This document shows positions 3,477 through 30,542 of a DNA stretch of 60,143 nucleotides, piece by piece; the stretch's first letter is position 1; each line of letters begins with the position of its first letter. Both the position numbers and the translations under genes were made by a program. A model generated the notes under the pieces. The model worked only from the letters and a program-made list of their open reading frames with translations. It made no database searches and was not told the DNA's origin. This DNA comes from Crocinitomicaceae bacterium. Lineage in GTDB: Bacteria > Bacteroidota > Bacteroidia > Flavobacteriales_D > Crocinitomicaceae. Where the stretch lies: contig JAQWKT010000011.1 in assembly GCA_029247685.1 (NCBI GenBank), positions 1 through 60,143 of the forward strand, read 5' to 3'.

Positions 3477-3508
3477 TGAAATTTGTTTTTTGTTAAAGAT
3501 AAGTGCTT

Positions 3509-4075: not shown

Positions 4076-4121
4076 ACACAAAAATATAACATGCATATTA
4101 ATTAAATCGGTTTATTTCTAT

Positions 4122-4129
4122 TAATTTTG
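4122..4129 (+). promoter_or_regulatory. Candidate -7 promoter element TAATTTTG
   Basis: TAATTTTG is an exact match to the Bacteroidota -7 consensus TAnnTTTG. It lies 21 bases upstream of the ATG at 4151, in the gap between the divergent genes. I see no clear TTG -33 element at the right distance, so the assignment rests on one half of the promoter. Confidence 0.4.
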
Positions 4130-4150
4130 CAATGAATTTAATTTTCATAA

Positions 4151-5617: not shown

Positions 5618-5618
5618 A

Positions 5619-6287: not shown

Positions 6288-6295
6288 ATACAGTT

Positions 6296-6451
6296 ATGAA
6301 TCAACAAAAAGCAAAAGAACGATTATTATTTAGTGGGCCAATGTTTATTGGATTAGGAATAGGTTTTATTTTTAATCAAGTCGCAGCTGGAGTATTAATT
6401 GGGATTGGGATTGGGTTTGTTTTACAGTTTTTATATCTAAAAAATAAATAA
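6296..6451 (+). CDS. 51-residue glycine-rich membrane peptide
   Basis: This short ORF lies between trmB and the serine hydrolase, starting 8 bases after the trmB stop and ending one base before the next ATG. The peptide begins MNQQKAKERLLFSGPMF and continues as two hydrophobic stretches rich in small residues (FIGLGIGFIF and GVLIGIGIGFVLQFLYL), ending in a positive tail KNK. This looks like a helical hairpin with glycine-zipper spacing inserted in the inner membrane. Its exact fit between the flanking genes supports it being real. I know no named family for it. Confidence 0.7.
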   Translation: MNQQKAKERLLFSGPMFIGLGIGFIFNQVAAGVLIGIGIGFVLQFLYLKNK

Positions 6452-6452
6452 A

Positions 6453-7532
6453 ATGAAAATTGTACTTGTTCTCTTTTTCGTCTTTAGCTTTAAACTTTGC
6501 TATGTTCAAGAAACAAGGATAAAAAGCCCTGTTGATTTTGTGAAAAATAAAATCGATAGTTTTCCAGAAAATTTTCAGGTTTCAATCGCATTAATCAAAA
6601 ATGACAAGGTAGGTTATATTGGTTTTCAAAAAATTAATGGAAAACTAAAACAAATTTCAAACCACGACTCCATCTTTGAAATCGGATCGATTACCAAGGT
6701 TTTTACAGGAACTCTTTTGGCAAACATGGTAAACAAAGGAAAGATTAAACTCCATGGAAAGGTACATAAACAACTTGGATTCAAGCTTTTCAAAAACAAA
6801 AAACTAAGATATATTCATTTGGCTAACCATACTGCTGGACTTGAATCCTTGCCATCAAACATCTTGGATTTAGCAAACAACAATCCTGAAAAACCATACG
6901 ACCAATATACCGACTCTCTATTTGTATACCATCTTAAAAATGAATTACAAATTAAAAACAAACCCGGAACAGCTCATGAATACTCCAATCTTGGCACTTC
7001 CATTATTGGATATGCCATTTCTAAAATGGAAAACAAAAGCTATTCGGAATTATATCAAAAAGAAATTTTTGAAAAATATGGCCTAAATGACACTAAGTGT
7101 CACTCTAATAGAGATAAAATGGTTCGTGGCATTAATCACCAAGGAGAATTTGTTCCAAACTGGGATTTTGGACCAATGTTTCCATGTGGAGGAATTACTT
7201 CCAACACCAAGGATTTAGCCAAATTTTTAATCGCTCATTTTGATTCCACAAACCTCGATTTAAAACTTGCATGCACCCCAACATTTAAGGTTACTGGAAA
7301 TTTTAAGATTGGGCTATCTTGGCATATTTTTAACATACCTAAATTAGGCAAAATGATTTTTCATAATGGAGCAACTGGAGGATACAGATCCAGTACTGCT
7401 TTTATGCCAAAATTTAAAACTGGTGTAGTCGTTTTATCCAACATCTCTGCTTATTCAGCATATGCTGCAGAAATTGATGAAATCTGTTTTGATATTATTA
7501 ATAGGATTACTAAGCCACTAAAAAATAATTAA
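6453..7532 (+). CDS. Class C beta-lactamase-fold serine hydrolase
   Basis: This is a 359-residue exported protein with an N-terminal signal peptide (hydrophobic MKIVLVLFFVFSFKLCYVQ). It has the three active-site motifs of the penicillin-binding-protein/class C beta-lactamase superfamily: SxxK as S79-I-T-K82, YxN as Y177-S-N179 and a C-terminal HNG near 305 in place of KTG. That set is typical of DD-peptidase-like esterases and D-aminopeptidase-type hydrolases, so I do not call it a resistance enzyme. It is periplasmic or extracellular. The gene is the last of a run with 1-8 base spacing (lipoprotein, trmB, small peptide, hydrolase). Confidence 0.9.
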   Translation: MKIVLVLFFVFSFKLCYVQETRIKSPVDFVKNKIDSFPENFQVSIALIKNDKVGYIGFQKINGKLKQISNHDSIFEIGSITKVFTGTLLANMVNKGKIKLHGKVHKQLGFKLFKNKKLRYIHLANHTAGLESLPSNILDLANNNPEKPYDQYTDSLFVYHLKNELQIKNKPGTAHEYSNLGTSIIGYAISKMENKSYSELYQKEIFEKYGLNDTKCHSNRDKMVRGINHQGEFVPNWDFGPMFPCGGITSNTKDLAKFLIAHFDSTNLDLKLACTPTFKVTGNFKIGLSWHIFNIPKLGKMIFHNGATGGYRSSTAFMPKFKTGVVVLSNISAYSAYAAEIDEICFDIINRITKPLKNN

Positions 7533-7554
7533 TTTTACTTAAATAATTTTTAGT

Positions 7555-9324
7555 ATGAAAAGAATAATACTGTTTGCATTTTTATTGATTCCATTTTTAA
7601 ACAATGCACAAAATGAAGCTTATTCATTTGTAAAAGATGAAGCTTTCTTTTATATCATTGATACCGCTACATTTACACACACAACAGACACCTTAACTTC
7701 TTCTTTAGGAAATGTGAATGGCGTTTTGGGAGCAGACACAGATCCTTGTGGAGATGTTTTTGTTGTATATAACAGTATTCAGGGAAGAAATCTTGGAAAG
7801 GTTAATCTTTCTACTGGTGTAATTGATGATATTGGCACACTTAATATAGATGGAGTTGCAAATATCACATTTTCAGAAAATGGAACTCTTTATGCCGTTA
7901 CTGGTGATGGATCAACAGTTGGGGAAACATTATTTACCGTTGATACAACTAATGCTCAAATGACTCTAGTTTTAGCTTTAGGCAATGGAAATGACGGAGA
8001 ATCAATTGAATATTGCACAAACGATGGAAAAATATACCATTGGAGTGGCTGGGCTACTACTAGCTCACCTAATAATCTTGTTATGGAAAGTATCGATATA
8101 AATACATTAAGCATAAGTAACATTCCTTTACATGGTCCTGGCTACAATTCACTTCATAATGTAGCAGGTTCAAGCTATGCTGGAAATGGAAAATTCCTAG
8201 TTTTTGATGTAAACAGTAGTTTGCATTTTTATGTAGACACATCGGGCTTCATAAGCTTACCTCTTGACTCTACCAATCAAGTGGGCTTTTCAGTAAAAGG
8301 AGTTCTTTTTTTGGATACTGCTCAATCTCAAATCGCAAACATTTACCAAAACAATTCCATTGGAATAGATTCCATATGTAGTGGAGACACCATTGTTTTA
8401 AAATGTCTAACTGCTGGAACAAACTACCAGTGGTATAAAAACAATGTTTCGACTGGAATTACAGATTCTATTATAGATGTTGTTTCAGGTGGAAACTACA
8501 CCTGTACTATATTGATAGCTGGAGGGTGTACTATAAACTCCAACTCGATAAACATTACTGAATTAAATTCACCCAATGTGAATATAAACCCAAACCCAGC
8601 TAGCTATTGCTATGGCGATAGTGTTTTATTAAGCGGAAGTTCTGGTGGTAGTTCACAGTGGTACGTATATAATCAATTTGCACAAAGTTTTGTGTCAATT
8701 AGTGGCGCTACAAACAATACTTTTTATGCCACAAATCCCGGAACTTATAATATGAAAAAAACAAATAGCAATGGTTGTTCGGCTTTGGCTAACAATCCTG
8801 TAATCGTTACAGAGAATCTAAATCCTACACTTAGCTTATCCACCTCACTTAACTCAGACACTATTTGCATATACAATGGGATTGTTCAAATAACATCTCT
8901 TCCTAGTGGTCCAACTTTTAGTGGAAATGGTGTAAGTGGTAATTTTACAGGAGGAGCCGATTTTGATCCAAATACTGCTGGAGTAGGAACGCATGTTATT
9001 TCTGCAATATATACCGATTCCAATGGTTGTATTGGAGTCGATAGCTTAACTATTTATATAGATGCATGTGCAACTTTAGATGAAAGCTCGCTATCTAATA
9101 TTCAACTTATTCCAAACCCAAATAATGGCTCATTTAAAATTGAGGGAATAAAAGAAAAGCAAAATTATTTAATTAAAGACATTCAAGGGAAGATAATTAA
9201 GCGTGGAAAGATTGAAAACAAATTATCAACAGTTAATATAGATTTTATTAAAACTGGCATTTATTTTATTGAAATAAAACAAAATAATAATATAAGATCT
9301 ATTCGATTTGTTGTCGAAAAATAA
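7555..9324 (+). CDS. T9SS type A cargo protein with propeller-like and Ig-like domains
   Basis: The 589-residue secreted protein has a signal peptide (ending near NNAQ, residue 19). An N-terminal region of about 240 residues follows, with repeated strand patterns (GRNLGKVNLSTG, GTLYAVTGDG, GKIYHWSGW) that read like a beta-propeller. Two or three Ig-like modules come next (CSGDTIVLKC...NYQWYKNN; YCYGDSVLLSGSSGGSSQWY). The last 75 residues are a type A T9SS sorting domain, recognisable by LIPNPNNGSFKIEG, an IKDIQGKII-like strand and a closing GIYFIEIKQ...RFVVEK. It should cross the outer membrane through T9SS and end on the surface. The ligand is unknown. Confidence 0.85.
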   Translation: MKRIILFAFLLIPFLNNAQNEAYSFVKDEAFFYIIDTATFTHTTDTLTSSLGNVNGVLGADTDPCGDVFVVYNSIQGRNLGKVNLSTGVIDDIGTLNIDGVANITFSENGTLYAVTGDGSTVGETLFTVDTTNAQMTLVLALGNGNDGESIEYCTNDGKIYHWSGWATTSSPNNLVMESIDINTLSISNIPLHGPGYNSLHNVAGSSYAGNGKFLVFDVNSSLHFYVDTSGFISLPLDSTNQVGFSVKGVLFLDTAQSQIANIYQNNSIGIDSICSGDTIVLKCLTAGTNYQWYKNNVSTGITDSIIDVVSGGNYTCTILIAGGCTINSNSINITELNSPNVNINPNPASYCYGDSVLLSGSSGGSSQWYVYNQFAQSFVSISGATNNTFYATNPGTYNMKKTNSNGCSALANNPVIVTENLNPTLSLSTSLNSDTICIYNGIVQITSLPSGPTFSGNGVSGNFTGGADFDPNTAGVGTHVISAIYTDSNGCIGVDSLTIYIDACATLDESSLSNIQLIPNPNNGSFKIEGIKEKQNYLIKDIQGKIIKRGKIENKLSTVNIDFIKTGIYFIEIKQNNNIRSIRFVVEK

Positions 9325-9349
9325 ATTAGATAAACCAAAAAGAATTTTA

Positions 9350-10978
9350 TTACCTAATAATTTTTATTTCTCCTGCAGATTTTATTTGGTAGATAAACCC
9401 TTCTTTTAAATTTTCAAATGTGTTTTTCGAACCATCAGGCCAAATTGCAGTAAGCTTGTCCAATTTTTTTGAATCTCCAAGTCCAAAGTAAAGAATTCGA
9501 GTAGATTGTGAAGCCTGTCCACTAGCACCATCCACTTCTTTTAGCATTTTTTTGCCATTATTTTCAAACAATACCCTACACGAAAAACAATCGCTGTTAA
9601 CATTCTTATCACCGACCATTCTAATTCCAATAAAATTCGTTTTATTGCATTGATTTTGATATACTTTTAGTTTTTGATCTTTCTTTTCATAAGCACTCCA
9701 TGTCAATTTTACTACAGAAGAAAATATATCTAGATCGCCATCGTGGTCATAATCAAAAATAACACTCCCTCTATGAGATAGGAAATCATTAACTCCTGAA
9801 GCGTTTGAAGAATCAATAAATAAACCATTTTCATTGATAAATAAAACATTAGGGTCTTTTATCGTTGTTTCTGGAACAAGCGTTGCTACATTTCCTTTGG
9901 ATACATATAAATCAAGATCACCGTCGAATTCATAATCGAAAAACAAACCACTCCAGCTTGTTCCTAAGACCTTATCATAAACATAAGTTAAATCAATGTC
10001 TTTTTTTTGTGCAACATCAATTAAAGAGCCCTTATCATTTTTATATAAATAATTCCTTCCAATATTTGTGATATAATAATCTAAATCTCCATCTTGATCA
10101 TAGTCCCCCTTTCCTATTCCCATGCCATACATTTCTTTAGAAAAACCTTTTTCTAAACTAACATCCGAAAAAGAAGATTCAGGAAAATTATTTCTATAAT
10201 ATACATTTCCTTTATGGGTCCACTCGCCAAAGTCATTTAGCAAAAGTAAATCCTGATCCCCATCATTATCTACATCGGAAAAACTAGCCGCAAGCCCACA
10301 TCCTATATCATTTACTCCAAAATATTTACCGCATTCATAAAAGCTTTTTCCTTTTTTATTAATGAGTAATTTATTTTCATACCCAATCGGATCATAACCT
10401 ATTTCACTTCCCAAACTATCCATAATTCCTCCCATAGCAGAAACATAATTACATAAATATAAATCTGAGTAACCATCCTTATTTACATCTCCCCAACATG
10501 CAGAGGAATAATTTCCTTTTTCAACAACTCCTTCTAGGGATATCAATTTAAATTTTTCACCTTTTATGTTTTTTAGAATAACCGGGTAATGTTTATCTCC
10601 TTGACCTATTCCTACTCCATAATTGGCAATTACAAAATCTTGATACCCATCGTTATTATAATCTGCACAAAATGCACCCTGAATAAAATATCCTTTTAAA
10701 GATTCTAAACCATAAAGTTTTGTGCCATCAAAAAAAGTTCCGTGGTCATTGATCCATAATTTAGAGTCAAAAACACCTCCGGACTGGAAAAAATCTTCCC
10801 ATCCATCATTATTCACATCAATAACCATTAGGCCACCTCCAGCCATTTGAAAATCATTTCCAGGATAAATATAATCTATACCAATACCATCTGAGACTTC
10901 TTTAAACAAGGTATTTTGAGAATAATAAACAGCTGTGATAGAGAGAGAAATAAATAGAAATATAAAATTCAATTTCAT
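9350..10978 (-). CDS. CRTAC1-type FG-GAP/VCBS repeat protein with ASPIC/UnbV domain
   Basis: This is a 542-residue secreted protein with a signal peptide (MKLNFIFLFISLSITAVYYS). Repeated calcium-loop motifs of the FG-GAP/VCBS kind (DVNNDGWEDFF, DYNNDGYQDFV, DVNKDGYSDLYL, DVDNDGDQDLLLL, DYDQDGDLDYYI, DYEFDGDLDLYV, DYDHDGDLDIFS) build a seven-bladed propeller. The last 90 residues form an ASPIC/UnbV domain (IGIRMVGDKNV...ASQSTRILYFGLGD...IWPDGS). No T9SS sorting domain is evident. The ATG overlaps the upstream haloperoxidase-like stop codon as ATGA, so the two proteins are translationally coupled and probably act together outside the cytoplasm. The molecular function of such CRTAC1 proteins is not established. 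Confidence 0.9.
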   Translation of the reverse strand: MKLNFIFLFISLSITAVYYSQNTLFKEVSDGIGIDYIYPGNDFQMAGGGLMVIDVNNDGWEDFFQSGGVFDSKLWINDHGTFFDGTKLYGLESLKGYFIQGAFCADYNNDGYQDFVIANYGVGIGQGDKHYPVILKNIKGEKFKLISLEGVVEKGNYSSACWGDVNKDGYSDLYLCNYVSAMGGIMDSLGSEIGYDPIGYENKLLINKKGKSFYECGKYFGVNDIGCGLAASFSDVDNDGDQDLLLLNDFGEWTHKGNVYYRNNFPESSFSDVSLEKGFSKEMYGMGIGKGDYDQDGDLDYYITNIGRNYLYKNDKGSLIDVAQKKDIDLTYVYDKVLGTSWSGLFFDYEFDGDLDLYVSKGNVATLVPETTIKDPNVLFINENGLFIDSSNASGVNDFLSHRGSVIFDYDHDGDLDIFSSVVKLTWSAYEKKDQKLKVYQNQCNKTNFIGIRMVGDKNVNSDCFSCRVLFENNGKKMLKEVDGASGQASQSTRILYFGLGDSKKLDKLTAIWPDGSKNTFENLKEGFIYQIKSAGEIKIIR

Positions 10979-15885: not shown

Positions 15886-18800
15886 CTATCTTATAATTAT
15901 AATATTTCCGGTTACAGGATCTCGATCCTGTTGATTTAATTCTATTTTGTAATAATATACTTCAGAGGGTAAATCCTTATTTAAGGATCTTCCATCCCAA
16001 GGAAGGTAATCACCAGATTGTTCATGTACAATTCTTCCCCATTTATTATAAATCGAAAGTTTCATGTTTGGGTATAAATCCAGATTGTCAATCATCCATG
16101 AGTCGTTATAATTATCGCCATTTGGTGAAAAAGTATTAACTGGATCAATGCAAGAAGAAGTTCCTTGGGTAACAAAAGCAGAATCTGAAATAGTACAACC
16201 TAATAAATCTGAAACAGTAACATAATACCAATTACTGGATAAGTCCATTATGCTATTTGCATTCTCTCCATTTGACCATATATAAGAATATCCTCCACTT
16301 CCACCAGATGGGTTTGCAAAAATAGAACCATCGGATTTATCAATACAACTTGCTGCAACGACATCCAAATACATAATAAGAGGATCTGGTTCTGAAATGG
16401 AAAGACTAATAGAGTCCGTGCAGTTTTTTTGATCAACCACCACAAGTTGATAGAAACCAACAGGAAGACTAGATGGATTAGATGTTGTATCACCATTTGA
16501 CCATGTATAAGAATAATTAGGATTTCCACCCGTTACCGACACAAGAACTTCTCCACCTGCTGATCCTGCGCAAGGAGAATTAATAACATTATACGAAATT
16601 ACAAGAGAATCTGGTTCAGATAGTGGAACATAAATTTCATAAAAACAATTATTTGAATCAATTATTTCAACTTGATAAGTATCTGCACTAAAACCAGTTA
16701 AATTTTGTGTTTGTGCAGAAAGAGCAAATTGTGAATTATACCAAGTATAAGAATATGGTGCCGTACCTCCTGAGGGATTAATATTAATATTCCCATCCGC
16801 AAAGCCTTTACAGCTAACCGGCGTTATAATTTCATTTAAACTCAAAGGCAAAGGTTGGTTTACCAAAATAGAATCGGTCAAAAAACACATGCTATTATCC
16901 GTAACCGTATATAAATAATATCCAGCAGATAAATTATCTATAAAAGATAAACTATCTCCACTAGACCATGAATAGCTATAAGGAAAATTACCACCGGAAA
17001 CAGATAAATTTATATATCCATTTGTCCCATCATAGCAAATAACATCAGAAACAACATTAGAAATACTTAAACTATCCAAAGGCTCACTTATTAATATACT
17101 ATCAATAAGACTACAATTATTCGAATCAGTAATGGTTACCGAATACAGATTGGAAGTTAATAAAGAGATATCTTGTGTTGTAAACCCATTACTCCAAGAA
17201 TAAGTATAAGGAACAACACCACCTGTTACACTAAGATCTACAGATCCATTCGCATTTCCTTTGCAAAGAATATTAACTCCTAAAAGGCTAGATGTAATTT
17301 GACTTGGCTGAGTTATAATTAAGGTATCTACATATATACAACCATTATTATCAGTTAATTGATAGCGATACTGATCTGCTGGAAAATTCATTAAATCTTC
17401 ATTGGAATAACTTAACAAAAAAGTGCTGTTTGACCATGAAAAAGAATAAGGACTTGAACCACCTGATGGAGTTAAATCAATAATTCCTGTAGAATCCCCA
17501 TAACAGCTAACATCACTTATCACATTAGAAACAGAAAGTGCCTGACTAGGTTGATCGATGGTAAATTGACCTGTATAATTACAATTTGTGAAATCAATAA
17601 TTGTATATCCGTATGAACCAGAAAGTAAATTTGAAATATCTTGTGTGGTTTGTCCATTTGTCCATGAATAGCTATAAGGGGAAGTCCCTCCTGCAATTGT
17701 CAAATCTATTTCGCCAGTATTTTCACCATAACACAATACATCCAACACATTTGCTGTTACAATAACAGGCATACTAGGTTGAGTAACCTGATGTTGATAA
17801 GATTCAATACAAGACGAATTATCGGTTATCGTTAAGGTATAAATTCCAGCTTGAATATTAGTGAGATCTTCCGAAGAAGATATCACAGAACCACTCTGAT
17901 TAGACCAAGAATAAGAATATGGCATTGATCCTCCTGTAATTGTTGCATCTATTGTTCCTGTAGATTCTCCAAAACAAATTACATTATTTCCTGTAGTTGT
18001 CGCAATTAACTGTGGTGGTTGTGCGATTGTAAAGCTATCTACAAACTGACAACCAAAAGCATCCGTAACGGTAAGTTGGTAAACATCAGCAACAACATTT
18101 GAAATACTTGAACTAGAAGCAGAAAACAAAGTAGTTGAATTTTGCCATGAATAAGCGTAAGGAGCAGAACCCCCTGAAGGACTAAAAGATGCAGAACCAG
18201 TTGACAAACCAAAGCAAGTAACATTAATGGGACTTGTTGTTCCTCCTAAAGCAGATGGCTGAATTATATCGTAAGATTTATTGATGGAACAACCATTTAT
18301 ATCGGTAATGGAAACTACATAATTTCCTGCTGTTAGAGAAGAAATATCTGCTGTTCCCTGGCCAGAAGACCAAGAATAGGTATAGGCTGGTGTGCCACCC
18401 CAAACGCTCAAATCAATTTCCCCTGTTGCAGAAGAAAAGCAAGAAGCTTGCGTTACGGAGGCATTAGCTTGAAGTGCCTCTGCTGGTTGGGTTATCGTAT
18501 AAATTTGTGAATAAGTACATCCCCCATTATCGGTGATATTCATGGTGTAAGATCCAGCAGGAACATTTGTTAGGTCTTCTAAACTAGTTGAGTTTGACCA
18601 AGTACTGGAATATGGGGTATTACCTCCATTAATTGTAACGTCAATAGCCCCAGTTGATTGTCCAAAACAAGAAACATTTGAAATGTTTTCAGAAACTATT
18701 ATTGGTAGAGGTGCTCCTACAACAAATGCTCCTACGACTGTACATCCAGAAGCATTGTCTTGAACATTAACCGTATAAGTTCCAACAGAAAGACCTGAAA

Positions 18801-19008
18801 TAGAGGAAGAATTTGCTCCATTGGACCAAGAAATAGTATAGTTACCACTCCCACTTGAGATTGCAACCTGTGCCGTTCCGTTAGTATATCCAGAACAGGT
18901 GACATCCGATCCTGACATTACGATTGTAGGGCAAGAAGCAAAATAATTTGTAACAAAAAACAAATTAAGTAACAAAAAATTAAAACACTTATTTATTTTC
19001 TTTTGCAT
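15886..19008 (-). CDS. SprB-type repeat adhesin, type B T9SS cargo (1040 residues)
   Basis: After a signal peptide (about residues 1-24) the protein consists almost entirely of 12 tandem SprB repeats of about 75 residues. Each has the form [x]xxVxCxGxxxGxI, then GGxxPYxYSWSNG, then GxYxxxVTDxxGC and xxxxQP. The C-terminal 85 residues are a gliding-motility-associated type B sorting domain (SPNGDNYNDSWMIDN, IYNKWGRIVHE, PSEVYYYKIEL, GNIIIIR). SprB is the mobile adhesin of gliding flavobacteria; this protein is much shorter and could be a mobile or a static adhesin. Its ATG overlaps the stop of the larger adhesin by one base (TAATG), indicating coupled synthesis. Confidence 0.92.
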   Translation of the reverse strand: MQKKINKCFNFLLLNLFFVTNYFASCPTIVMSGSDVTCSGYTNGTAQVAISSGSGNYTISWSNGANSSSISGLSVGTYTVNVQDNASGCTVVGAFVVGAPLPIIVSENISNVSCFGQSTGAIDVTINGGNTPYSSTWSNSTSLEDLTNVPAGSYTMNITDNGGCTYSQIYTITQPAEALQANASVTQASCFSSATGEIDLSVWGGTPAYTYSWSSGQGTADISSLTAGNYVVSITDINGCSINKSYDIIQPSALGGTTSPINVTCFGLSTGSASFSPSGGSAPYAYSWQNSTTLFSASSSSISNVVADVYQLTVTDAFGCQFVDSFTIAQPPQLIATTTGNNVICFGESTGTIDATITGGSMPYSYSWSNQSGSVISSSEDLTNIQAGIYTLTITDNSSCIESYQHQVTQPSMPVIVTANVLDVLCYGENTGEIDLTIAGGTSPYSYSWTNGQTTQDISNLLSGSYGYTIIDFTNCNYTGQFTIDQPSQALSVSNVISDVSCYGDSTGIIDLTPSGGSSPYSFSWSNSTFLLSYSNEDLMNFPADQYRYQLTDNNGCIYVDTLIITQPSQITSSLLGVNILCKGNANGSVDLSVTGGVVPYTYSWSNGFTTQDISLLTSNLYSVTITDSNNCSLIDSILISEPLDSLSISNVVSDVICYDGTNGYINLSVSGGNFPYSYSWSSGDSLSFIDNLSAGYYLYTVTDNSMCFLTDSILVNQPLPLSLNEIITPVSCKGFADGNININPSGGTAPYSYTWYNSQFALSAQTQNLTGFSADTYQVEIIDSNNCFYEIYVPLSEPDSLVISYNVINSPCAGSAGGEVLVSVTGGNPNYSYTWSNGDTTSNPSSLPVGFYQLVVVDQKNCTDSISLSISEPDPLIMYLDVVAASCIDKSDGSIFANPSGGSGGYSYIWSNGENANSIMDLSSNWYYVTVSDLLGCTISDSAFVTQGTSSCIDPVNTFSPNGDNYNDSWMIDNLDLYPNMKLSIYNKWGRIVHEQSGDYLPWDGRSLNKDLPSEVYYYKIELNQQDRDPVTGNIIIIR
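16155..18912 (-). repeat. 12 tandem SprB repeats (protein level) in the 1040-residue adhesin
   Basis: Twelve consecutive units of roughly 70-80 codons can be counted by their xCxG near the start and GGxxPYxYSW in the centre. The DNA copies have diverged, so these are protein-level repeats and not recent DNA duplications. Boundaries are approximate. Confidence 0.85.
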
Positions 19009-22000
19009 TATCTAATAATTGTAATTGTACCTGTATATTGGTCATTATTTGGGTTTTCCAATTTAATCACGTAATAATAAACAGCAGCAGGAAGTGGTGC
19101 TCCATTTTTAGTTCCATTCCAAGGCTTGTATTGACCAATTGATGAATAAACTTCCCTACCCCATTTATTAAATATTTTAACAATTGCATTTGGATATAAA
19201 TCCAAATTATCTAATACCCATGTATCGTTATAATTATCGCCATTTGGAGTAATCGTGTTTGGCACATGAACACATTGCTCATAACTAAGTGCTATATTGA
19301 ATGTATCAATTATTGAGCAAGCATTAAAGTCGGTAATATTTATAATATAATCTCCTGCTATAATATCGATTAAATCTTTTTGTATGGATCCATCACTCCA
19401 ATAAAAAGAATATGGCTGTGTTCCACCATGAACATCAATTTCAATACTTGCATCAGATTGATCTATACAACTTAAGGGAGATACCATGTATGATAGGTCA
19501 AGTTTAGATGGCTGACTTAATAATGCCGTTCCAGATAATTCACAAGCATTAGAATCTATAATCAAATACTCGTATTCACCAGATTGAAGATTAGTAATGA
19601 TTGGAGAGGTATTTCCAGTAGACCATAAATACGTATATGGGGATATTCCTCCTGAAACGCTTAAATCAACAGCTCCAGTAGAATCTTCAAAACAAAGTAA
19701 ATTGCTTGTTTGAACATTAACAGAAATCGCAGTTGGTTCATTTACAGTAATTACTTGTTCATTGACACATAAATTCTCATCCCTTATTCGAACAAAATAA
19801 TTTCCTTGAGAAAGATCTGATAAAGTTTGTCCATTATTACTTAACAATATTTCATTTTGATTTCCCCAATTAAAATAATAAGGTTGAGTTCCTCCTGTAA
19901 TGCTTAAGTTAATTTCTCCATCGGAATAAGAATAACAGGAAACATCAGTAACTAAAGAATTTACCAATAATTCTAAAGTAGGCTCATTTATATTTGCACC
20001 AGAAAAAGAGGTGCATAAATTTCCATCAGTAACGGTTAAATTATAAGAACCTACTGATAGGTTATAAAGATTTTGTGATGTTTGACCAGTAGACCAATTA
20101 TAAGTGTATGGAGGTGTGCCACCGTTAACAAAGCATTCAACAGAACCATCCGAACCATTTTTACAATTAACATCGCTCGGATTTGTAACAATTGATAATG
20201 GTGATGAAGGTTGATTAATTATAAATGATTGTGCTAAAGAACATCCATTACTATCTGTAACAGAAACAGTATAAGAAGCCGATTGAAGGGAATTGACATC
20301 TTGGGTGGTTTGGCCGTTAGACCAACTATACGAATAACCAGGTGTTCCTCCTGAAATAGCAACGTCAATTTCTCCATCAGATGCTCCATAACATTTTGCG
20401 TCAATTGAAGAATGGGTTAATGACAACGGATTTAAAGGCTCAGAAACCACTATCGATAAAGTTTGATGACAAGCGTTACTATCTAAAACATTAACAATGT
20501 ATGTATCCGCTGGAAGAGAAGAGATATCTTCGGTTGTATCTACAAGAATAGCCGTAATTCCATTAGACCATTGAATCGTATATGGCGATACACCACCAGA
20601 AACATCGAGATCAATACTACCTGTAGTATCCCCATGGCATAATACGTCTGAAACATTGGAAGAAAGAGATAGAGCACTAGCAGGTTGAGTAAGAATAATT
20701 GTTGTATCAACTTGGCAATTGTTGCTATCGGACAAAATTAAATTATAAACCCCCGAAGAAAGATTAATAATACTATTGGAATTTTGTCCGTTTGACCAGG
20801 AATAAGAATATCCAGGAGTTCCACCTGAAGGAATTGCAACAATAGAACCAGTGGTATCTCCGAAACATAATATATCTGTTTTTTCAATCGAAACACTTAA
20901 TGGATTAGAGGGTTGGTCTAATGTAAATACATAAGATTTAGTACATAAATTATTATCCGAAAAATTGAGAGTATAGGTACCAGCAGCTAAATTACTTATA
21001 GAGGGTGAATTTGAACTATTAGACCATGAATAAGAATATGGCATAACTCCTCCAGATATATTTGGATCAATAGCTCCATCATTATCATCAAAACAATTAA
21101 TTTGACTAATAATTGGAGTGGAAATAATTTGTGCTGGTTGATTAACCGTTTCAGAGATTTGATTTACACAACCGTTGTTATCGGTAACTATAATAGTATA
21201 AGTTGCTGCAGGAAGATTAGAAACATCTTCGCTAATAAAAGGCAATACTGTTCCTAAAGAACTAGACCATAGAAAAGAATAACCTACCGTTCCACCGGTG
21301 ACAGTTAAATCAATTGATCCAGTTGAATCGGAAAAACATAAAACATCCACTGAAGAAGAGGATAAGGTTAATGGATTTGTTGGTTGATTAACTATATGTG
21401 TTTCAGTACTTGTACAACCTTTTCCATCGGTAACGGTGAGCGTATAGCTACCAGCATTTAAACTATCTATATCATCTACTAGTTGACCATTACTCCATGA
21501 ATAAAAATAAGGCAAAGTGCCTCCAAAAACATCAATATCAATTTGTGCATCATTATTTCCATTGCAATTAACATGAGTAATCGCAGCTACTTGACCAAGA
21601 ATATTTGGTTCCAAAATAGTTACGCTTAATGATTTTTGACAACCAACATTATCTGTTACAGTTAGCGAATATGTTCCAGCATCTAGAGAAGATACATCTT
21701 CGCTACTTGCCCCGTTACTCCAGGAAAATGTATATGGGCCTGTCCCCCCTTGAACCAATAAATCAATAGACCCATCATTAATTCCACCATTGCAACTTTT
21801 ATCTGTCTTGGTATAGGAAAGCATTAAATCTTGTGCTGGTTCTGTTATTGTTGCTCCCGTAAATAATTGACATCCATTATTATCGTATATAGAAACCTGA
21901 TAAGCACCTGCAGGAATATTGGATAAATTTTGTGTTGAACCACCATTAGTCCATGTATACGTATATGGTAATGCAGGAGAAATTGCATTAATAGTGGTAT

Positions 22001-23552
22001 TTATGCTTCCAGTGCTATCTCCAAAACATAAAATATTAGTGGAATTGCTAGCAATAGACAAAGGACTTGCCTTCATGGTAAAAGCAGGTTTGGTGTATTC
22101 ATCAAAACCTTCTAAACTCCAAGTATTATCATATAAATCAAATGTGAAACCACCAATAGGCAGTGAAGTACTCCACAATGGGCCAATACCTAAATTTAAT
22201 CCGCTCCAACCAATAGCAGGAATATTTATAGCAGGAGTACATACCTCCGTCCAACATATTTTGAAAGGATTGGACCAAGTTGGACATGGGTATGGAATAT
22301 CAATACAAACCGCTGGTATATTAATTGCTGGAGTAATTGTAATCCCTGGAATAACTAGACTAAATTCAAAAGCAGACATATCTAAACTAAAACCTATAGA
22401 ATCGTAAGTGTGATTTCGCAAAATGCCATCAATGGAATAAGTTGGAATAATATCAATTTCATCAAAATGACAAGGGAAATTATATTGTAAATCATTTCCT
22501 AAATCTACATTAACAATACTACTAGTTCCAGACTCTACAATTGATCCCGAGGGATCTCTCTCTTGAAAGTTTACTGCGAATGGAAATTCAAATCTCCCTT
22601 TAACCGTTGGAGTGAAATTAAAACACTGCTTCATGAAATTGTTTAAGACAAAGGAAGCCGAAAAAAAGTTCCAGTTAAGTGTTGCTACCCCCCCTAAACT
22701 TTGACTACCACTTAAATTACCTAAAACCAATCCAACAGGACCAGGGATATTCCCTAATAAAGCAAAAATATCAAGAGCCATATTGCTATACAAATCTTCT
22801 CCACATGCACCTAAATTATTACCCGATAAATTGTGACTTGTGGAAACATATGGGATATCTAACTCGCCAGTTAGTCCATAATTTCCAAGAACAGGTGGAA
22901 GCGATAAAGGCAATCCGGTGCCATAAGAAAATAAAGGTGCCCCTCCATTAAAAGAAAAGAACTCGATGCCATAAATATTTGCCGTAAAAATATTTATGTT
23001 TTGAACGCCGGTATTAAACGTAGGAATAATTGGAAAAGTAACACAACCAAAAACGCAAATAGTTGCAGATAAACTAGCCCCAAGTTGAAAATTCAAATCA
23101 AGTCTTGCCTCTCCAACACTAGGGAAATAAGTATCTAATGAATATCCTGATGAAACGGAATATTCCGTTTCAATAGTAACCAAATCGCCTTGATCATACG
23201 TATTATCTACTGGCATATCCAAGGTAATATCAACCGGATAGGTTACTGCTACTTCTCCAGTTGTGAAACCTAAAAGTGAAAAATCCATGCCAATAAAACC
23301 TGAAAAATTACCAGCAACACCTGCCCCAAAACTAGAACCTAAAATATTAACTATCCCTCCATTTCCAGTATCAAAATTGACGTTCCATGGCATATTAAAA
23401 ATTGGAATAACTTGATTAAAACTAAAAGCACTAAAAGATGGACCCCACATATTTTGATTGCCAGATGCAAAATCAACATGATGATTAATGGTCTGTTGAG
23501 AATTAACAGAAGTAAATAAAAAAAGAAAAACGATTAATAATACTTTTCTCAC
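19008..23552 (-). CDS. SprB-type repeat adhesin with unique N-terminal module (1514 residues)
   Basis: This is a large secreted protein: signal peptide (1-18, ending VNSQ), an N-terminal module of about 480 residues, 12 SprB repeats (about 500-1420) and a type B gliding-associated sorting domain (TPNGDNYNDTWVLDN, IFNKWGREVYSS, LPAAVYYYVIKLE, GTITIIR). The N-terminal module is rich in Gly, Phe, Pro and Ile. It contains two copies of PAINIPA (around residues 408 and 440) and several cysteines, and I do not recognise it as a known domain; it is the likely functional head carried by the repeat stalk. The gene overlaps its upstream neighbour by 4 bases (ATGA) and its downstream neighbour by 1, so the whole set is one operon. 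Confidence 0.9.
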   Translation of the reverse strand: MRKVLLIVFLFLFTSVNSQQTINHHVDFASGNQNMWGPSFSAFSFNQVIPIFNMPWNVNFDTGNGGIVNILGSSFGAGVAGNFSGFIGMDFSLLGFTTGEVAVTYPVDITLDMPVDNTYDQGDLVTIETEYSVSSGYSLDTYFPSVGEARLDLNFQLGASLSATICVFGCVTFPIIPTFNTGVQNINIFTANIYGIEFFSFNGGAPLFSYGTGLPLSLPPVLGNYGLTGELDIPYVSTSHNLSGNNLGACGEDLYSNMALDIFALLGNIPGPVGLVLGNLSGSQSLGGVATLNWNFFSASFVLNNFMKQCFNFTPTVKGRFEFPFAVNFQERDPSGSIVESGTSSIVNVDLGNDLQYNFPCHFDEIDIIPTYSIDGILRNHTYDSIGFSLDMSAFEFSLVIPGITITPAINIPAVCIDIPYPCPTWSNPFKICWTEVCTPAINIPAIGWSGLNLGIGPLWSTSLPIGGFTFDLYDNTWSLEGFDEYTKPAFTMKASPLSIASNSTNILCFGDSTGSINTTINAISPALPYTYTWTNGGSTQNLSNIPAGAYQVSIYDNNGCQLFTGATITEPAQDLMLSYTKTDKSCNGGINDGSIDLLVQGGTGPYTFSWSNGASSEDVSSLDAGTYSLTVTDNVGCQKSLSVTILEPNILGQVAAITHVNCNGNNDAQIDIDVFGGTLPYFYSWSNGQLVDDIDSLNAGSYTLTVTDGKGCTSTETHIVNQPTNPLTLSSSSVDVLCFSDSTGSIDLTVTGGTVGYSFLWSSSLGTVLPFISEDVSNLPAATYTIIVTDNNGCVNQISETVNQPAQIISTPIISQINCFDDNDGAIDPNISGGVMPYSYSWSNSSNSPSISNLAAGTYTLNFSDNNLCTKSYVFTLDQPSNPLSVSIEKTDILCFGDTTGSIVAIPSGGTPGYSYSWSNGQNSNSIINLSSGVYNLILSDSNNCQVDTTIILTQPASALSLSSNVSDVLCHGDTTGSIDLDVSGGVSPYTIQWSNGITAILVDTTEDISSLPADTYIVNVLDSNACHQTLSIVVSEPLNPLSLTHSSIDAKCYGASDGEIDVAISGGTPGYSYSWSNGQTTQDVNSLQSASYTVSVTDSNGCSLAQSFIINQPSSPLSIVTNPSDVNCKNGSDGSVECFVNGGTPPYTYNWSTGQTSQNLYNLSVGSYNLTVTDGNLCTSFSGANINEPTLELLVNSLVTDVSCYSYSDGEINLSITGGTQPYYFNWGNQNEILLSNNGQTLSDLSQGNYFVRIRDENLCVNEQVITVNEPTAISVNVQTSNLLCFEDSTGAVDLSVSGGISPYTYLWSTGNTSPIITNLQSGEYEYLIIDSNACELSGTALLSQPSKLDLSYMVSPLSCIDQSDASIEIDVHGGTQPYSFYWSDGSIQKDLIDIIAGDYIINITDFNACSIIDTFNIALSYEQCVHVPNTITPNGDNYNDTWVLDNLDLYPNAIVKIFNKWGREVYSSIGQYKPWNGTKNGAPLPAAVYYYVIKLENPNNDQYTGTITIIR
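19277..22055 (-). repeat. 12 tandem SprB repeats (protein level) in the 1514-residue adhesin
   Basis: Twelve units can be counted from NILCFGDSTGSINTTI to PLSCIDQSDASIEIDV, most with GGTxPYxYSWSNGQ centres. The repeat number equals that of the adjacent 1040-residue adhesin. Boundaries are approximate. Confidence 0.85.
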
Positions 23553-24136
23553 TCCTTTATTTTTGATAAATCAATAGATTGAATACATTTAAGTATTTCG
23601 GTTTCAATAAGATCTTCTAATCGAAGTGGATAAGTAATGGTAAGCCAAATGGTTTTATTTAAATCCCCAGCATATACCATATATCGACCAAATGTATTTC
23701 CTTCAAGATTGAAATTAAACTTATACCAAATCCCCTTAACTCCTGCTTTAGATACAATCTTTTTTTCAGAAATATATTTAAGTTTGTTTTTTTTATAAAA
23801 TTCTTGATTCATCCCTTCCGATAATTTTCGAAAATTTACCTTTTTAATGAGGCTAACAATAATTGCTGTACTAGCTTGATAATGAATAAACCCATTAAAC
23901 GAAGGAGAAACTTCAAAACCTTCTGGAGATTCAATAACCTCAAGATTAACATTGATTACTTCTGGGGTTGTAAATAACGTCTTATCGTTAACGTCTTTAT
24001 CACTTTGATTCACTTGAACAAATGCGATAAATGGAAAAAAAATAAGGTAAAAAATAGAGCTTTGAATAAAGAGAACATAAACTAAACAACTTAAAGCAAA
24101 TCTAAAAAAAAATATATCTAAAACATAATAAATCAA
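23549..24136 (-). CDS. Exported protein, DcrB/PsbP-like (tentative), first gene of SprB-like operon
   Basis: The 195-residue protein opens with about 40 strongly hydrophobic residues (two short membrane spans, or one long signal-anchor) followed by a soluble domain of about 150 residues. The soluble part has NGFIHYQASTAIIVSLI, KYISEKKIVSKAGVKGIWYK, NTFGRYMVYAGD and IWLTITYPLRLEDLI, ending in a helix LKCIQSID. This strand-helix order resembles DcrB/DUF1795/PsbP-like proteins; I offer that only tentatively. Its stop overlaps the start of the 1514-residue adhesin as ATGA, so it is the promoter-proximal member of the five-gene cassette. No canonical start other than the ATG at 24136 gives a complete signal segment. 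Confidence 0.7.
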   Translation of the reverse strand: MIYYVLDIFFFRFALSCLVYVLFIQSSIFYLIFFPFIAFVQVNQSDKDVNDKTLFTTPEVINVNLEVIESPEGFEVSPSFNGFIHYQASTAIIVSLIKKVNFRKLSEGMNQEFYKKNKLKYISEKKIVSKAGVKGIWYKFNFNLEGNTFGRYMVYAGDLNKTIWLTITYPLRLEDLIETEILKCIQSIDLSKIKE

Positions 24137-24185
24137 ATTATTTAATTAATATTTGTAAAACAATTTTGGATCTATTAAAACCATT

Positions 24186-27035
24186 ATGTTTCTTAAAAAA
24201 TCGCTGTTATTAATTTGTTTTTATTTTCTGCAAATTTCCGCTTTTTTAGCTGCTGATTACTATTGGATTGGAGGAAGTGGAAACTGGTCAGACCCTCAAA
24301 AATGGGCATTAAGTTCAGGTGGAGCTCCTGCAGGATCAACTCCAACAGGTTTAGACAATGCTATTTTTGATAGTCAATCTTTTTCTTTACCCAATCAACA
24401 AGTCATTATAGATGATTCCACCAATATTAATTTAATGGACTGGTCTCTTTGTACTAATTCGCCAGAGTTAATCTTGGATACTAACTTATTTATTAACGGA
24501 AACACTACACTTCACCCAAGCATGAGTGTTCACAGTAATAACATTACTTTTCGAATACAATTTCTAGCTCAATCTTTTTTCAATCCTAATGGAGCATTGA
24601 TTGATTGTAATATCTCGATATACCTTAACAACGACATTGAAACATTAGATTTAAACAACAACCTATTAATGAGCGATTCTTCTACTATTTTTTTAATGAA
24701 AGGAGAATTTAAAACTAACAACAATGCCATAACTTCTGGAATTATAAACGTTGTTGATGTTGATTCTACATCAAAAAAATCACTTATTCTTGGAAACTCA
24801 GAAATAAACTTATCCATTGGATTTTATGCTCTTAATATCATTGATTCAAATTTTACCTTCAATGCTGGAAATTCATTAATTTCAATTGGAGATAGTAACT
24901 ACGTAAATTATTTAAATTCAGATAGTTTAACTTTTTATAATATTCATTTGAACTTTGACACAACATCAAGTCAACAAACGCTTAAAGGAAATAATATTTA
25001 CAATAAATTAATTATCAACAAAGGAAGCAAAATCAAAATTGATTCTGCAAGTATTCATACTGTTAATGATAGTCTTATTTTTTCTGGTACTTGTATAGAT
25101 TCGGTTTATCTTTTTTCTTCCAACCCCTCTTTTGCTGCCATATTTAACAAAAGCTCTAATAATGATGTTTTTTCGGAGTGTGTAAATTTTCATGGAATTT
25201 CATTTTCTAATGCTTCATTAACCACCTACTTTTCTAACGATCAAGGAAATAATAACAACATAAGCTTTAGTACCTCCTCTTCAGTTAATGCAAACTTTAA
25301 TGTTGTAGGGCCTTTTTGCTTGGGAGACACCACATTCTTTTCCAATACATCCACTTGTTTTTCTGGAAACTCAAATGACTTTAATTCAATTTGGTACTTT
25401 AATGATGGTTCTGGGTATTATTTAAACCCACCTTTAGACAGCACATGGATCTCTTATCAAAATGATACCAACGCGCATGTTTTTATTCAAAATGGAGACT
25501 TTTCTGTTTCTCTTATTACCACTTATAATAACTTTTGTAAAGATACTGCTACAACAGTTGTTCATATTAATGACCCATCAATATACTTATACACCGCATC
25601 TGACACAAACATATGTGCTGGAACAGAAATAAGCTTTGAAGCATCCAGTGGAGTGTCTGGTGCAGAATTTGAATTTTTCCATAATGGAATATCTCAAAAC
25701 ACTCCATCCATAAATGACACTATTTTTACCATTAATTCGCTTTCTAATAATGATTCGGTAAGTGTTTTTGCCTATGAAAATGGCTGTGTAAGTTCTAGCA
25801 AACCTTCTTACACCTTTGTTGTAAACCCTTCCCCCACTTACACTTGGTCATCTAATGACCCCGACACAACAATCTGTTCTTTAGATAGTGTTAGTTTTTA
25901 TGCAAGTTCCTTAGATACTTCTTATGTTTATCAGTTTTTGGTGAATAATTCTGGTGTAACTTCTTATATGAATACTCCAAGTTATACGACAAATTCTATC
26001 CTAAATAACGATACCGTTCAATTGGTAGTTAAAGACACTTTGAACTGCACAGATACTAGTTTTATGATATTCACTGTCAACCCTTTACCTATTACAACAT
26101 TAAGTGAATCTTCAGGATCAAATGTTATTTGTTCTGGTCAAGCAATCACCTTTACAGCATCCGGAGCTGATTTATACGAATTTTTCATTAATGGAGTTTC
26201 TCAAACTGGGTTAATTCCCTCAAATACATTTGTAAGCGCTTCTTTAAATTCGGGAGACTCAGTAACAGTTATTGGTGAAACAAATAACGGTTGTGTAAAA
26301 CAAGCAGATGAAATATTCTCGTATACTGTAAATCCATTACCAAATGTTGGCTTAACATTCAACTCCATTGATACTACAATTTGTTCTGGCGAAAATGTTA
26401 TATTCAATGCCTTTGGCGCAAGTATTTATGAGTTTTTTATTAATGGCATTTCTCAAGGATCTGCCTCCTCGTTCTCCACTTTAAACACCACCACATTAAA
26501 CCATTTTGATACGGTTTATGTCATTGGAACATTTAGTGGATGCTCTAATTATACAGATAGTGCGATTTTTACGGTTAACACCTCCCCAACAACTAATCTA
26601 ATTTGTGATGATATAGATGCCATTATTTGTTCGCAAACCCTTGTTAATTTTAATGCCTCTGGGGCAAATTCATATGAATTTTTTGTAGATGGAGTTTCTC
26701 AAGGAGCACCTTCAACATCATCTACTTTTAGCACATCTTCTCTAACAAATAATCAAACCGTTTCTGTAACAGGTGAATCCAATACATGTACAGTTAGTCA
26801 AAGCATTCAATTTAGCGTTCTACCTTCTCCATCTGTTGGTTTTTTCTCTAATGATCCAAATAATTCCATCTGCGAGGGAGAAACAATTACCTTTACATGT
26901 GCCAATGCAGATCAATACGAACTATTTGTCAATGGCAACTCCCAGGGCTCTCCACAAAACAACTCTATATTTACACCAAACCTTCCAAATGGAATTGATT
27001 CCTTATATATAATTGGAACGGCATTAAATGGATGA
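24186..27035 (+). CDS. Giant T9SS adhesin, N-terminal part, interrupted by in-frame TGA
   Basis: 949 codons from the ATG at 24186 to a TGA at 27033-27035. A signal peptide (ending FLAA) is followed by the Bacteroidota surface motif YYWIGGSGNWSDPQKW and a beta-helix-like region of about 350 residues. A PKD/Ig-like stretch comes next and then six tandem units of about 85 residues with the form IC-SGExVTFTASGAxxYEFFVNGxSQG and a closing NGC. The piece has no sorting domain. The same frame continues without any shift to 30542, and the TGA falls exactly where the other repeats have the NGC cysteine. It is therefore the front half of a 2118-codon gene. It is divergent from the SprB-like operon, with 49 bases between them. 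Confidence 0.85.
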   Translation: MFLKKSLLLICFYFLQISAFLAADYYWIGGSGNWSDPQKWALSSGGAPAGSTPTGLDNAIFDSQSFSLPNQQVIIDDSTNINLMDWSLCTNSPELILDTNLFINGNTTLHPSMSVHSNNITFRIQFLAQSFFNPNGALIDCNISIYLNNDIETLDLNNNLLMSDSSTIFLMKGEFKTNNNAITSGIINVVDVDSTSKKSLILGNSEINLSIGFYALNIIDSNFTFNAGNSLISIGDSNYVNYLNSDSLTFYNIHLNFDTTSSQQTLKGNNIYNKLIINKGSKIKIDSASIHTVNDSLIFSGTCIDSVYLFSSNPSFAAIFNKSSNNDVFSECVNFHGISFSNASLTTYFSNDQGNNNNISFSTSSSVNANFNVVGPFCLGDTTFFSNTSTCFSGNSNDFNSIWYFNDGSGYYLNPPLDSTWISYQNDTNAHVFIQNGDFSVSLITTYNNFCKDTATTVVHINDPSIYLYTASDTNICAGTEISFEASSGVSGAEFEFFHNGISQNTPSINDTIFTINSLSNNDSVSVFAYENGCVSSSKPSYTFVVNPSPTYTWSSNDPDTTICSLDSVSFYASSLDTSYVYQFLVNNSGVTSYMNTPSYTTNSILNNDTVQLVVKDTLNCTDTSFMIFTVNPLPITTLSESSGSNVICSGQAITFTASGADLYEFFINGVSQTGLIPSNTFVSASLNSGDSVTVIGETNNGCVKQADEIFSYTVNPLPNVGLTFNSIDTTICSGENVIFNAFGASIYEFFINGISQGSASSFSTLNTTTLNHFDTVYVIGTFSGCSNYTDSAIFTVNTSPTTNLICDDIDAIICSQTLVNFNASGANSYEFFVDGVSQGAPSTSSTFSTSSLTNNQTVSVTGESNTCTVSQSIQFSVLPSPSVGFFSNDPNNSICEGETITFTCANADQYELFVNGNSQGSPQNNSIFTPNLPNGIDSLYIIGTALNG

Positions 27036-28800
27036 ACCGATACAAGCCAAGGTATTATTGTAACAGTTACCCCTCTTCCATCCATAACTTTAACTAGTTC
27101 AGATATTGATAATATTTTTTGCTCCGGCGAAAGCATCACATTTACAGCAAGTGGAGCAACTCTTTTTCAATTTGTTATTGACGGAGTCCCTCAAGGGAGT
27201 TTATCTTCTAGCAATACATTAACCACCACTGGTATTTCTAATGCACAATCAATTTATGCGATAGGATCTACATTGGGTTGTTCCAGTAATTCCAATACAA
27301 TAACCAATATCGTAAATCAAAACCCTAATGTAATCCTAACAAGTAATGACATCAATAATGTATTTTGTCAAGACCAAATTGTAACATTTACGGCGGGGGG
27401 AGCTAATTCTTATGAGTTTATTGTGAATGGCATATCACAAGGTAACCCATCCACCATCGACACTTTAAATTCTTCAAATTTCACCATTGGAAACTATTCC
27501 GTTACGGTTAATGGCGAACAAAATAACTGCTTTGGAACCGCTAGCCTACAAGTTAGTGTTAATCAAGTTCCAGGCGCAAATATTATTTCTTCAGACATAG
27601 ACAACATAATCTGTCAAGGAGAAATGGTAACTTACACTTCTTCTGGAGCAAATTTATATGAGTTTTTTGTCAATAATGTTTCTATATCTTCCCCATCACC
27701 AATTAACACTTTTTCCACCTCATCCCTTAACAATGGCGATATAGTTTCTGTTGTAACCTCCTCTAGCAATGGTTGCTCCAACTCATCTGCATATGCACCA
27801 ATAACGGTGAATTCAAACCCCGTTATTTCACTAACAAGTTCTCCACAAAATCAACAAATATGTTTGAACGACACGGTTATTCTTAGCGCAACAGGAGGAA
27901 GTTTATATGAATTTTTTGTAGATGGAGTTTCTCAAGGTCCTTCTTCTTCAACTAATTCGATAACAATTAATAATTTAGGGAATGGAAATAATGTTTATGT
28001 GCAAGGAACTCAAACCGGATGTTCGGCAATATCTAACTCATTTAATTATACCGTTTTTAATAATCCAGTCGTTGCGTTAATAAACAACGAAGACAGTTTA
28101 TTATGTGATTTTGAAAGCACTAATTTAATTGCAACTGGTGCTAACCAATATCAATTCCTTATAAATGGTATTCCAATCGGACCATATAGCTCCGTAGACA
28201 CCCTTGCCTCTTTATTAGCTAATGGGGATATTGTTTCGGTTAATGGACAAACCAATGGGTGTGCATCAATTTCAAATAACACAATTACATTTACCGTATT
28301 TAATACCCCAATTATATCAACTGTTTGCTCTGACTTAGACACAACTATTTGTTTAAATGATAGTGTTCATTTCACTTCTACAGGTGCTTCTGAATATTTA
28401 TTTGAACTTAATGGAGCTTCTTTACAAAACAGTACACTTAACACGTTCTATTTAAATTACTTAAATCAAAATGACACTTTAAAAATAACGGGTTTTAATG
28501 GGCATTGTTCCTCTAATTCCAATAGTTATGTATTTACTGTAAATTCAATGAATTTAAATTCGAGTGTTTCTCCCTCAACACTTATTTGTGAAGGAGATTT
28601 AGTTACCATAAATGCCTCTGGAGGAGACTTATACGAGTTTTTTGTCAATGGCATCTCCGTATCAAACCAAAGTTCACAATCAGATTACAGCAGTTCCACC
28701 CTGAATAATCTGGATGAAATCACCTATACCGCATACTCCAATTCCACATCATGTTTACAAGAAAACGACGATTTTATCTCCATAAGTGTAATTGCTACCC
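25580..28800 (+). repeat. 13 tandem Ig-like repeats (protein level) across the interrupted adhesin
   Basis: Six units precede the TGA and seven follow it, all in one frame and with the same spacing. The consensus is DxxICxGExVTFTASGA, YEFFVNGxSQG and a final GC. Two cysteines per unit are conserved and probably form a disulphide. Boundaries are approximate. Confidence 0.8.
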
Positions 28801-30542
28801 CATCTTTTAATGTTCTTCCAAATACGACATTTTGCGAAGGAGATTCGGTAAGATTGTACAGTAATTCTGGTCTTGGAAATCAATGGCTTTTAAATGGAAC
28901 TCCAATTCTAAGTGCTACTGATACCACCTATACTTCATACGCTAGTGGAGATTACTCATTAGAGGTTCTTATTGGAGGAAATGGAGAAGTTTTTTCAATT
29001 GGACAAAATGCAAATGGTATTTTTGGAGCTGGAAACAACTTAAACAGTTTTTCTCCGATAAAATCTCCGTATTTTTCAAACTTTTCTTCTTTATCTTCTG
29101 GATTTGATTTTATGACCGGTGTTGATTCTTCTGGCAATGCTTATTCATGGGGAAACAACAGTTCTGGACAACTTGGAGATGGAACGTTTACAAATTCTAA
29201 CATTCCTAATTTAATTGCATCTTTATCGAACATTAAATTTGTGTCTACTACATCCTCGAGTTGCATGGCAATTACAAATACTGGAGAAGCATATGTCTGG
29301 GGGAACAATAGTGAAGGCCAATTATCTACTGGAAATACAAGCGTCATTAACTTTCCTTATTTAAATACAAACATCAATAATATTGATACTGTTGCTGCAG
29401 GTAAAAATCATTTTATTTTGCTTAAAAATGACAGCACTGTTTGGTCTGTTGGAAACAATGATTTTGGACAATTAGGACAAGGTAATTTAGTTTCTCAAAA
29501 TAATATTCAACAAATACTTCCCCTTAACAACATCGTTAAAATTGGTACTGGAGAATACCATAGTTTTGCGATCAACTCTAATGGCAAGCTATATGTTTGG
29601 GGAAATAATTCATCAGGGCAACTTGGACTTAACGATTATAACAACAGGTTAAGCCCCGCATTATCCCCTTTACAAAATATTATTCAAGCAGAAGGAGGAG
29701 CAAGTCATAGTGTCTTTTTAAACAGCAACCACAAAGCTTATGCTACTGGTGCAAATAATTTTGGACAATTAGGCCTTGGAAACCAAGGCTCTATTATAAG
29801 CCCTCAAGAAATCCAAATTAATGGAGTAAGAATGATTTCTATATCCCAAAACACAAGTCTATTTTTAAGAAATGACTATTCGGTTTATGGGTGTGGAAAT
29901 AACCTGGAAAATCAACTCAACTCTACCTCCATAAATATCATTAATAGCCCAAGTAGAATATCTGAAATATATGGGATTGGATCGATTGAAGCTTCTAAAT
30001 CAAGTTCTCATTTTCTTGCAAACAATTTAAAAATTTGTGTTTCACCAATCGTTACTATTACTGCATTAACAAACCCAATAGTAAGCATTAATTCTATTGG
30101 AGATACTTTAACATGCACTTCAGGAAGTAATTATCAATGGTATTTTAATGGCTCTATGATACCGGGAGCTAACTCCTCTTCATTTGTAGCTAATGGTACT
30201 GGTAATTATAGTGTATTGGTAACATATGCAAATGGATGTTCCAATATGTCTTCGGATTTCTTTCATTCCATGAGTAATCTTTTAGATTTCGATCATATTA
30301 ACTCTAAAGTTTCTATCTACCCTAATCCTGCTAAGGATTATTTACAAATTAAAATAAATGGGAATGATCAGGCGTTTCAAAAAATATTAATCACAGATAT
30401 TTTTGGTAGAATCGTTAGAAAAATGAATCTCAACGAATTTCAAAACAAACCCATTTCATTGAAAAAAATGGAAAATGGTTGCTACAACCTTATTCTAATT
30501 CATTCAAAAGGAAAACTAGTAAAACGATTCATTAAAAATTAG
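27036..30542 (+). pseudogene. Giant T9SS adhesin, C-terminal part (in frame with 24186-27035)
   Basis: The frame is open from the codon after the TGA. A TTG at 27273 could be called as an independent start, but a start there would give a protein without signal peptide and cut into a repeat. The segment holds seven more Ig-like repeats, an eighth divergent one (FCEGDSVRLYSNSG), then a seven-bladed RCC1-like propeller (about 28975-30030; blades marked by WGNNSSGQLG-type motifs), another Ig-like unit (NYQWYFNGSMI) and a type A T9SS sorting domain (IYPNPAKDYLQIKI, ITDIFGRIVR, CYNLILIHSKGK). It needs the upstream half for export. Whether it is a pseudogene, a sequencing error or is read through is open. 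Confidence 0.75.

Follow-up and report, generated by a model that had tools for sequence, protein, structure and literature searches.

It has been reported that gldB of Flavobacterium psychrophilum FPS-S11B was interrupted by a single mutation that introduced a premature stop found in one isolate only (PMC8400371), and this was the one relevant case returned by a literature search on stops in genes related to the type IX secretion system (T9SS). A survey of in-frame stops in prokaryotic genes, for which readthrough was suggested, required the same stop to be present in two or more species (PMC7918605). T9SS type A cargo proteins carry a signal-peptide-like start and a C-terminal sorting domain recognised by TIGR04183 and PF18962. 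Here we describe a gene with both of these features, in which a single in-frame TGA stands between them. It lies in a stretch of 60,143 nucleotides (the window), which is the whole of one contig (C19) of the draft genome of an uncultured Crocinitomicaceae bacterium (Bacteroidota).

Positions 24186-30542 of the window form a single reading frame of 2118 codons, with the TGA at codon 950 as its sole internal stop (Table 1). It had originally been predicted from this DNA that one frame continues across the TGA and that both sides encode the same tandem Ig-like repeat, and both points held: 949 and 1168 codons are colinear on either side, and relatives encode the two halves in one open frame. Because the halves share the Ig-like unit and relatives have a single open frame, the continuity is not a matter of chance. 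The front half gave an Ig_7 match in Pfam (E=1.1e-15). The further prediction that the signal peptide would be confined to the front half and the sorting domain to the back half was also confirmed, the former as judged from the sequence only and the latter by PF18962 and TIGR04183. No tandem DNA repeats able to cause slippage were found. With a C-terminal sorting domain, and in a genome that holds SprA and 107 sorting-domain matches, the gene has what defines a T9SS type A cargo; read with the standard code, however, the TGA keeps signal peptide and sorting domain off a single translated chain, whereas in intact relatives the two are on one chain.

Table 1. Features of the adhesin gene and its conserved neighbours, in window coordinates.
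Feature	Position	Strand	Description
T9SS type B cargo, 1040 aa	15886..19008	-	SprB-type repeats; conserved neighbour
T9SS type B cargo, 1514 aa	19008..23552	-	SprB-type repeats; conserved neighbour
Divergent neighbour, 195 aa	23549..24136	-	Kept beside the adhesin in relatives
Front half of adhesin frame	24186..27035	+	949 aa plus TGA; a signal-peptide-like start and a YYWIGGSGNW-type N-terminal domain, then Ig-like units (CHU_C-type, Ig_7), five of them whole and the sixth missing only its end; ends at the TGA; sorting domain absent
In-frame TGA, codon 950	27033..27035	+	In Ig-like unit 6, at the second Cys of the pair; the first is residue 896
Back half of adhesin frame	27036..30542	+	1168 aa plus normal stop; continues the frame; rest of unit 6, then seven Ig-like units with paired Cys, an RCC1-type propeller, a further Ig-like stretch and the T9SS type A sorting domain; without signal peptide; no in-frame ATG until 196 codons past the TGA
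RCC1-type beta-propeller	28968..29970 (limits approximate)	+	PF25390 E=4.8e-70, PF00415 E=6.2e-51
T9SS type A sorting domain (Por_Secre_tail)	30315..30533	+	PF18962 E=1.5e-10; TIGR04183 29 bits, cut-off 23

The gene product is probably a long Ig-repeat adhesin of the cell surface, secreted by the type IX system; its adhesive role is putative, and its likenesses to GhpA and to RCC1 proteins are at the level of the repeats. Across window positions 24186-28950, the best match of the Ig-like units to a solved structure was GhpA, the grappling hook protein of Aureispira (PDB 9flp). The propeller matched RPGR, HERC2, UVR8 and RCC1 chains in the PDB, and in a plasmid search matches were limited to RCC1 and Ig repeats.

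A pair of cysteines 52-57 residues apart is present in every one of the 13 Ig-like units, and the TGA occupies the place of the second member of pair 6. These pairs are invariant in an alignment of seven genomes (this one and six relatives), the sole exception being residue 950 here. The claim that the TGA stands at a conserved cysteine is thereby borne out and strengthened. All 13 distinct related copies that reach the TGA column (counting the identical sequences L102 and L021 once) have a cysteine and no stop, the cysteine of the most distant copy lying one alignment column earlier. A total of 568 codons of the frame, including all 43 cysteine codons, are one step from a stop, and as such a stop at a cysteine is unremarkable and needs no special cause.

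The adhesin is uninterrupted in six relatives with matching neighbours (G024, G058, UBA2104, HRS-ES5-bin-44, EAC53 and HJF.29), in all of which it adjoins a relative of the 195-aa protein and one or both of the large cargo genes. Gene order is kept in G058, in a different orientation, while a contig end falls within the adhesin gene of EAC53 (L021), far downstream of the TGA position, and within the neighbouring cargo gene of HRS-ES5-bin-44. The adhesin, the 195-aa protein and the two SprB-repeat type B cargos (window positions 15886-30542) form a block found in several related genomes, and it is possible that they are a co-working surface set. A metagenome-assembled genome labelled Chryseobacterium gleum (L020, CALPUT020000036.1) carries this Crocinitomicaceae-type block, and so its species name may be wrong. 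Back-half changes that disrupt the frame in related strains had been named at the outset as the sign of plain decay, and none were seen in relatives of this locus, in a collection with one genome per species. In another genome of the genus, an adhesin relative at another locus (L113, G089:C3:137000-149500, positions 2688-9735) has an unrelated frameshift in its RCC1-type propeller, with the break near 8650; its neighbourhood differs from that in the window, and by eye the genes upstream look PorP/SprF-like and OmpA-like.

The nearest relative, EAC53, has 67% protein identity to the front half and 62% to the back half. The back half of the window protein does not clearly exceed this relative in private changes, with private residues numbering 75 versus 84, 71 versus 72, 75 versus 75, 67 versus 54 and 57 versus 59 against outgroups L020, L022, L019, L017 and L018 respectively, in a comparison spanning about 756 of the 1168 back-half residues in the nearest relative and stopping short of the propeller end and the sorting domain. 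Approximate dN/dS against the same relative is 0.12 for the front half and 0.20 for the back, rough values given that synonymous sites are nearly saturated. Over its 3504 bases, the back half has no second stop and no frameshift. About 3.7% of random back-half substitutions would create another stop, and with indels assumed to occur at 5-10% of the rate of substitutions, each 1% of neutral divergence should bring 2.5-3.6 disabling events. From the intact back half, neutral divergence since the lesion is therefore put at less than about 0.8-1.2% (95% level). As the back half is both intact and not accelerated, the lesion is either very young or not real; relaxed constraint past the stop would be expected of an old lesion only.

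On balance, we lean towards the TGA being an ordinary and very recent nonsense mutation, which would make the gene either a newly formed pseudogene or a null allele that segregates within the population. The stop is placed where relatives have a sense codon, in a gene that is otherwise colinear with theirs, which is the definition of a nonsense-interrupted gene. In the lineage sequenced, the adhesin would have been cut very recently, by one nonsense mutation that struck a disulfide-type cysteine, and RF2 would terminate translation there. The N-terminal 949 residues, with the last Ig-like unit incomplete, would cross the inner membrane through Sec and, having no sorting domain, would be expected to remain periplasmic and to be broken down. 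The C-terminal half would probably not be made or not be exported, because there is neither a good start nearby nor a signal peptide. Possible restarts past the TGA (an in-frame TTG at 27273, a GTG at 27423 and the first ATG at 27624) were judged not useful, there being by eye no signal peptide. From the way in which T9SS cargo is generally handled, the gene would be null for surface display if the base is real.

Everything that we observed would be accounted for equally well if the TGA were a consensus or base-call error of a metagenome assembly and the living population carried an intact gene, a serious possibility that we nevertheless incline against; our weighting of a real mutation against an error is a judgement, not a calculation. 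The source genome (2.23 Mb in 83 contigs, 94% complete) is most likely metagenome-assembled, given its fragmentation and that its named relatives are metagenome-assembled Crocinitomicaceae, and the window is an entire contig of it. The lesion affects a single codon and is accompanied by no others, and the published survey (PMC7918605) left out in-frame stops confined to one genome, treating them as possible errors. Against an error, only one clear same-frame interruption was present in 425 kb of this genome, which implies that errors of this kind are not rife. This sample was scanned for two long frames split by a single stop, the second without an early ATG, and yielded the adhesin and three TAA cases that look like ordinary neighbouring genes. 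Two other sorting-domain frames are disrupted in this genome, and real decay of secreted-protein genes may therefore also occur here. One is a sorting-domain gene that looks disrupted by two in-frame TAA codons around the sorting domain (L097, G000:C33:1-1600), and in the other the sorting domain is in another frame at about 4300-4600 (L091, G000:C72:1-20000), so that this gene too looks disrupted. A further sorting-domain match with a TAA (C8:1454) proved to be a normal gene end with no interruption. The frameshift in the G089 adhesin relative, at its different place, is expected from sporadic errors or sporadic mutations alike, and the sporadic lesions in C33, C72 and G089 together fit either real loss of surface proteins or draft-assembly errors.

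Survival of the back half, with its frame intact over 3.5 kb and under purifying selection relative to EAC53, is also what readthrough would predict, if the TGA were leaky and most ribosomes stopped there while a few continued, giving a periplasmic short form and a full-length surface adhesin. Of the stop codons, UGA is the leakiest, and in E. coli tRNA-Trp tends to misread it when, as here, the next base is A (PMC5289835). We consider a leaky stop unlikely, as the TGA is shared by none of the 13 related copies and nearly all of the purifying selection that we measured predates it. No downstream RNA structure promoting readthrough was detected, the RNA 3' of the TGA being no more structured than shuffled sequences (z = 0.66); two other TGA stops in the window are also followed by A (TGAA); and among the 21 tRNAs recovered, none with a UCA anticodon was found. 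Insertion of tryptophan, the usual residue at a misread UGA, would break a cysteine pair that is invariant in relatives and leave one cysteine unpaired. Since no relative shares the stop, the TGA lacks the conservation by which functional readthrough was recognised in the survey (PMC7918605), and a maintained leaky stop has no support. A real stop of recent origin in this lineage that is partly read through, so that a clonal population would make much short form and little full-length protein as a stochastic surface switch, is in our estimate very improbable. Of the three options first offered for the TGA, a fresh mutation and a sequencing error are thus supported by the privacy of the stop, by a remainder of the gene that is intact and not accelerated, and by relatives that are open with cysteine at this position, while a leaky stop with two useful products is not. 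A TGA aligned with a conserved cysteine is the classic signature of selenocysteine, and the TGA here is so aligned; yet selenocysteine, or reassignment of TGA in this organism, has next to no likelihood. The selA gene is absent from this genome, with no match over the cut-off among the 41 genomes of the genus searched, and no tRNA-Sec scored over the cut-off here, three sub-cut-off matches being serine and leucine tRNAs. In G012 and G023, of the same genus, there is a tRNA-Sec match just over the cut-off, and selA is absent from both. With neither SelA nor tRNA-Sec, and with a stop at a cysteine needing no special cause, selenocysteine is effectively excluded. A TGA-reassigned code is likewise ruled out, as RF2 is encoded (prfB over the cut-off) and TGA is in use as a stop: it ends 26 of 217 long frames in the 425-kb sample and, as had been stated for this DNA, is a normal stop elsewhere in the window, where five other open reading frames end in TGA.

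If the base is real, the nonsense mutation that we favour is a further example of a large surface protein lost recently from an environmental lineage of Bacteroidota, and it cautions that gene callers will break such cargo into two proteins, one with only the signal peptide and the other with only the sorting domain. If instead the base is wrong, the locus illustrates how a single miscalled position in a metagenome assembly gives rise to two misleading gene models. The most striking reading of the locus, selenocysteine, is ruled out in practice, and the TGA does not look like a case of the genetic code being read in a novel manner.

The interrupted adhesin is like gldB of F. psychrophilum in having a premature stop that arises by one mutation and is private to one isolate (PMC8400371). 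In contrast, gldB is a gene of the gliding machinery with a known phenotype, and here the gene encodes an uncharacterised secreted cargo, adhesin-like, and the base may itself be an error. The cases in the readthrough survey share with it an in-frame stop and an intact downstream frame, but have that stop in at least two species, while here no relative has it (PMC7918605). The tandem Ig-like units of GhpA from Aureispira sp. CCB-QB1 (PDB 9flp) match both the front half (E=1.4e-23) and the back half (E=9.4e-22); GhpA is a protein of 5898 residues to which no match of the propeller was seen, and the likeness is at repeat level, with hook function not established for the protein described here. 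The gene resembles those of T9SS type A cargo proteins (TIGR04183 / PF18962) in its C-terminal sorting domain and signal-peptide-like start, and differs from them in that a stop, as the sequence is written, separates the two signals.
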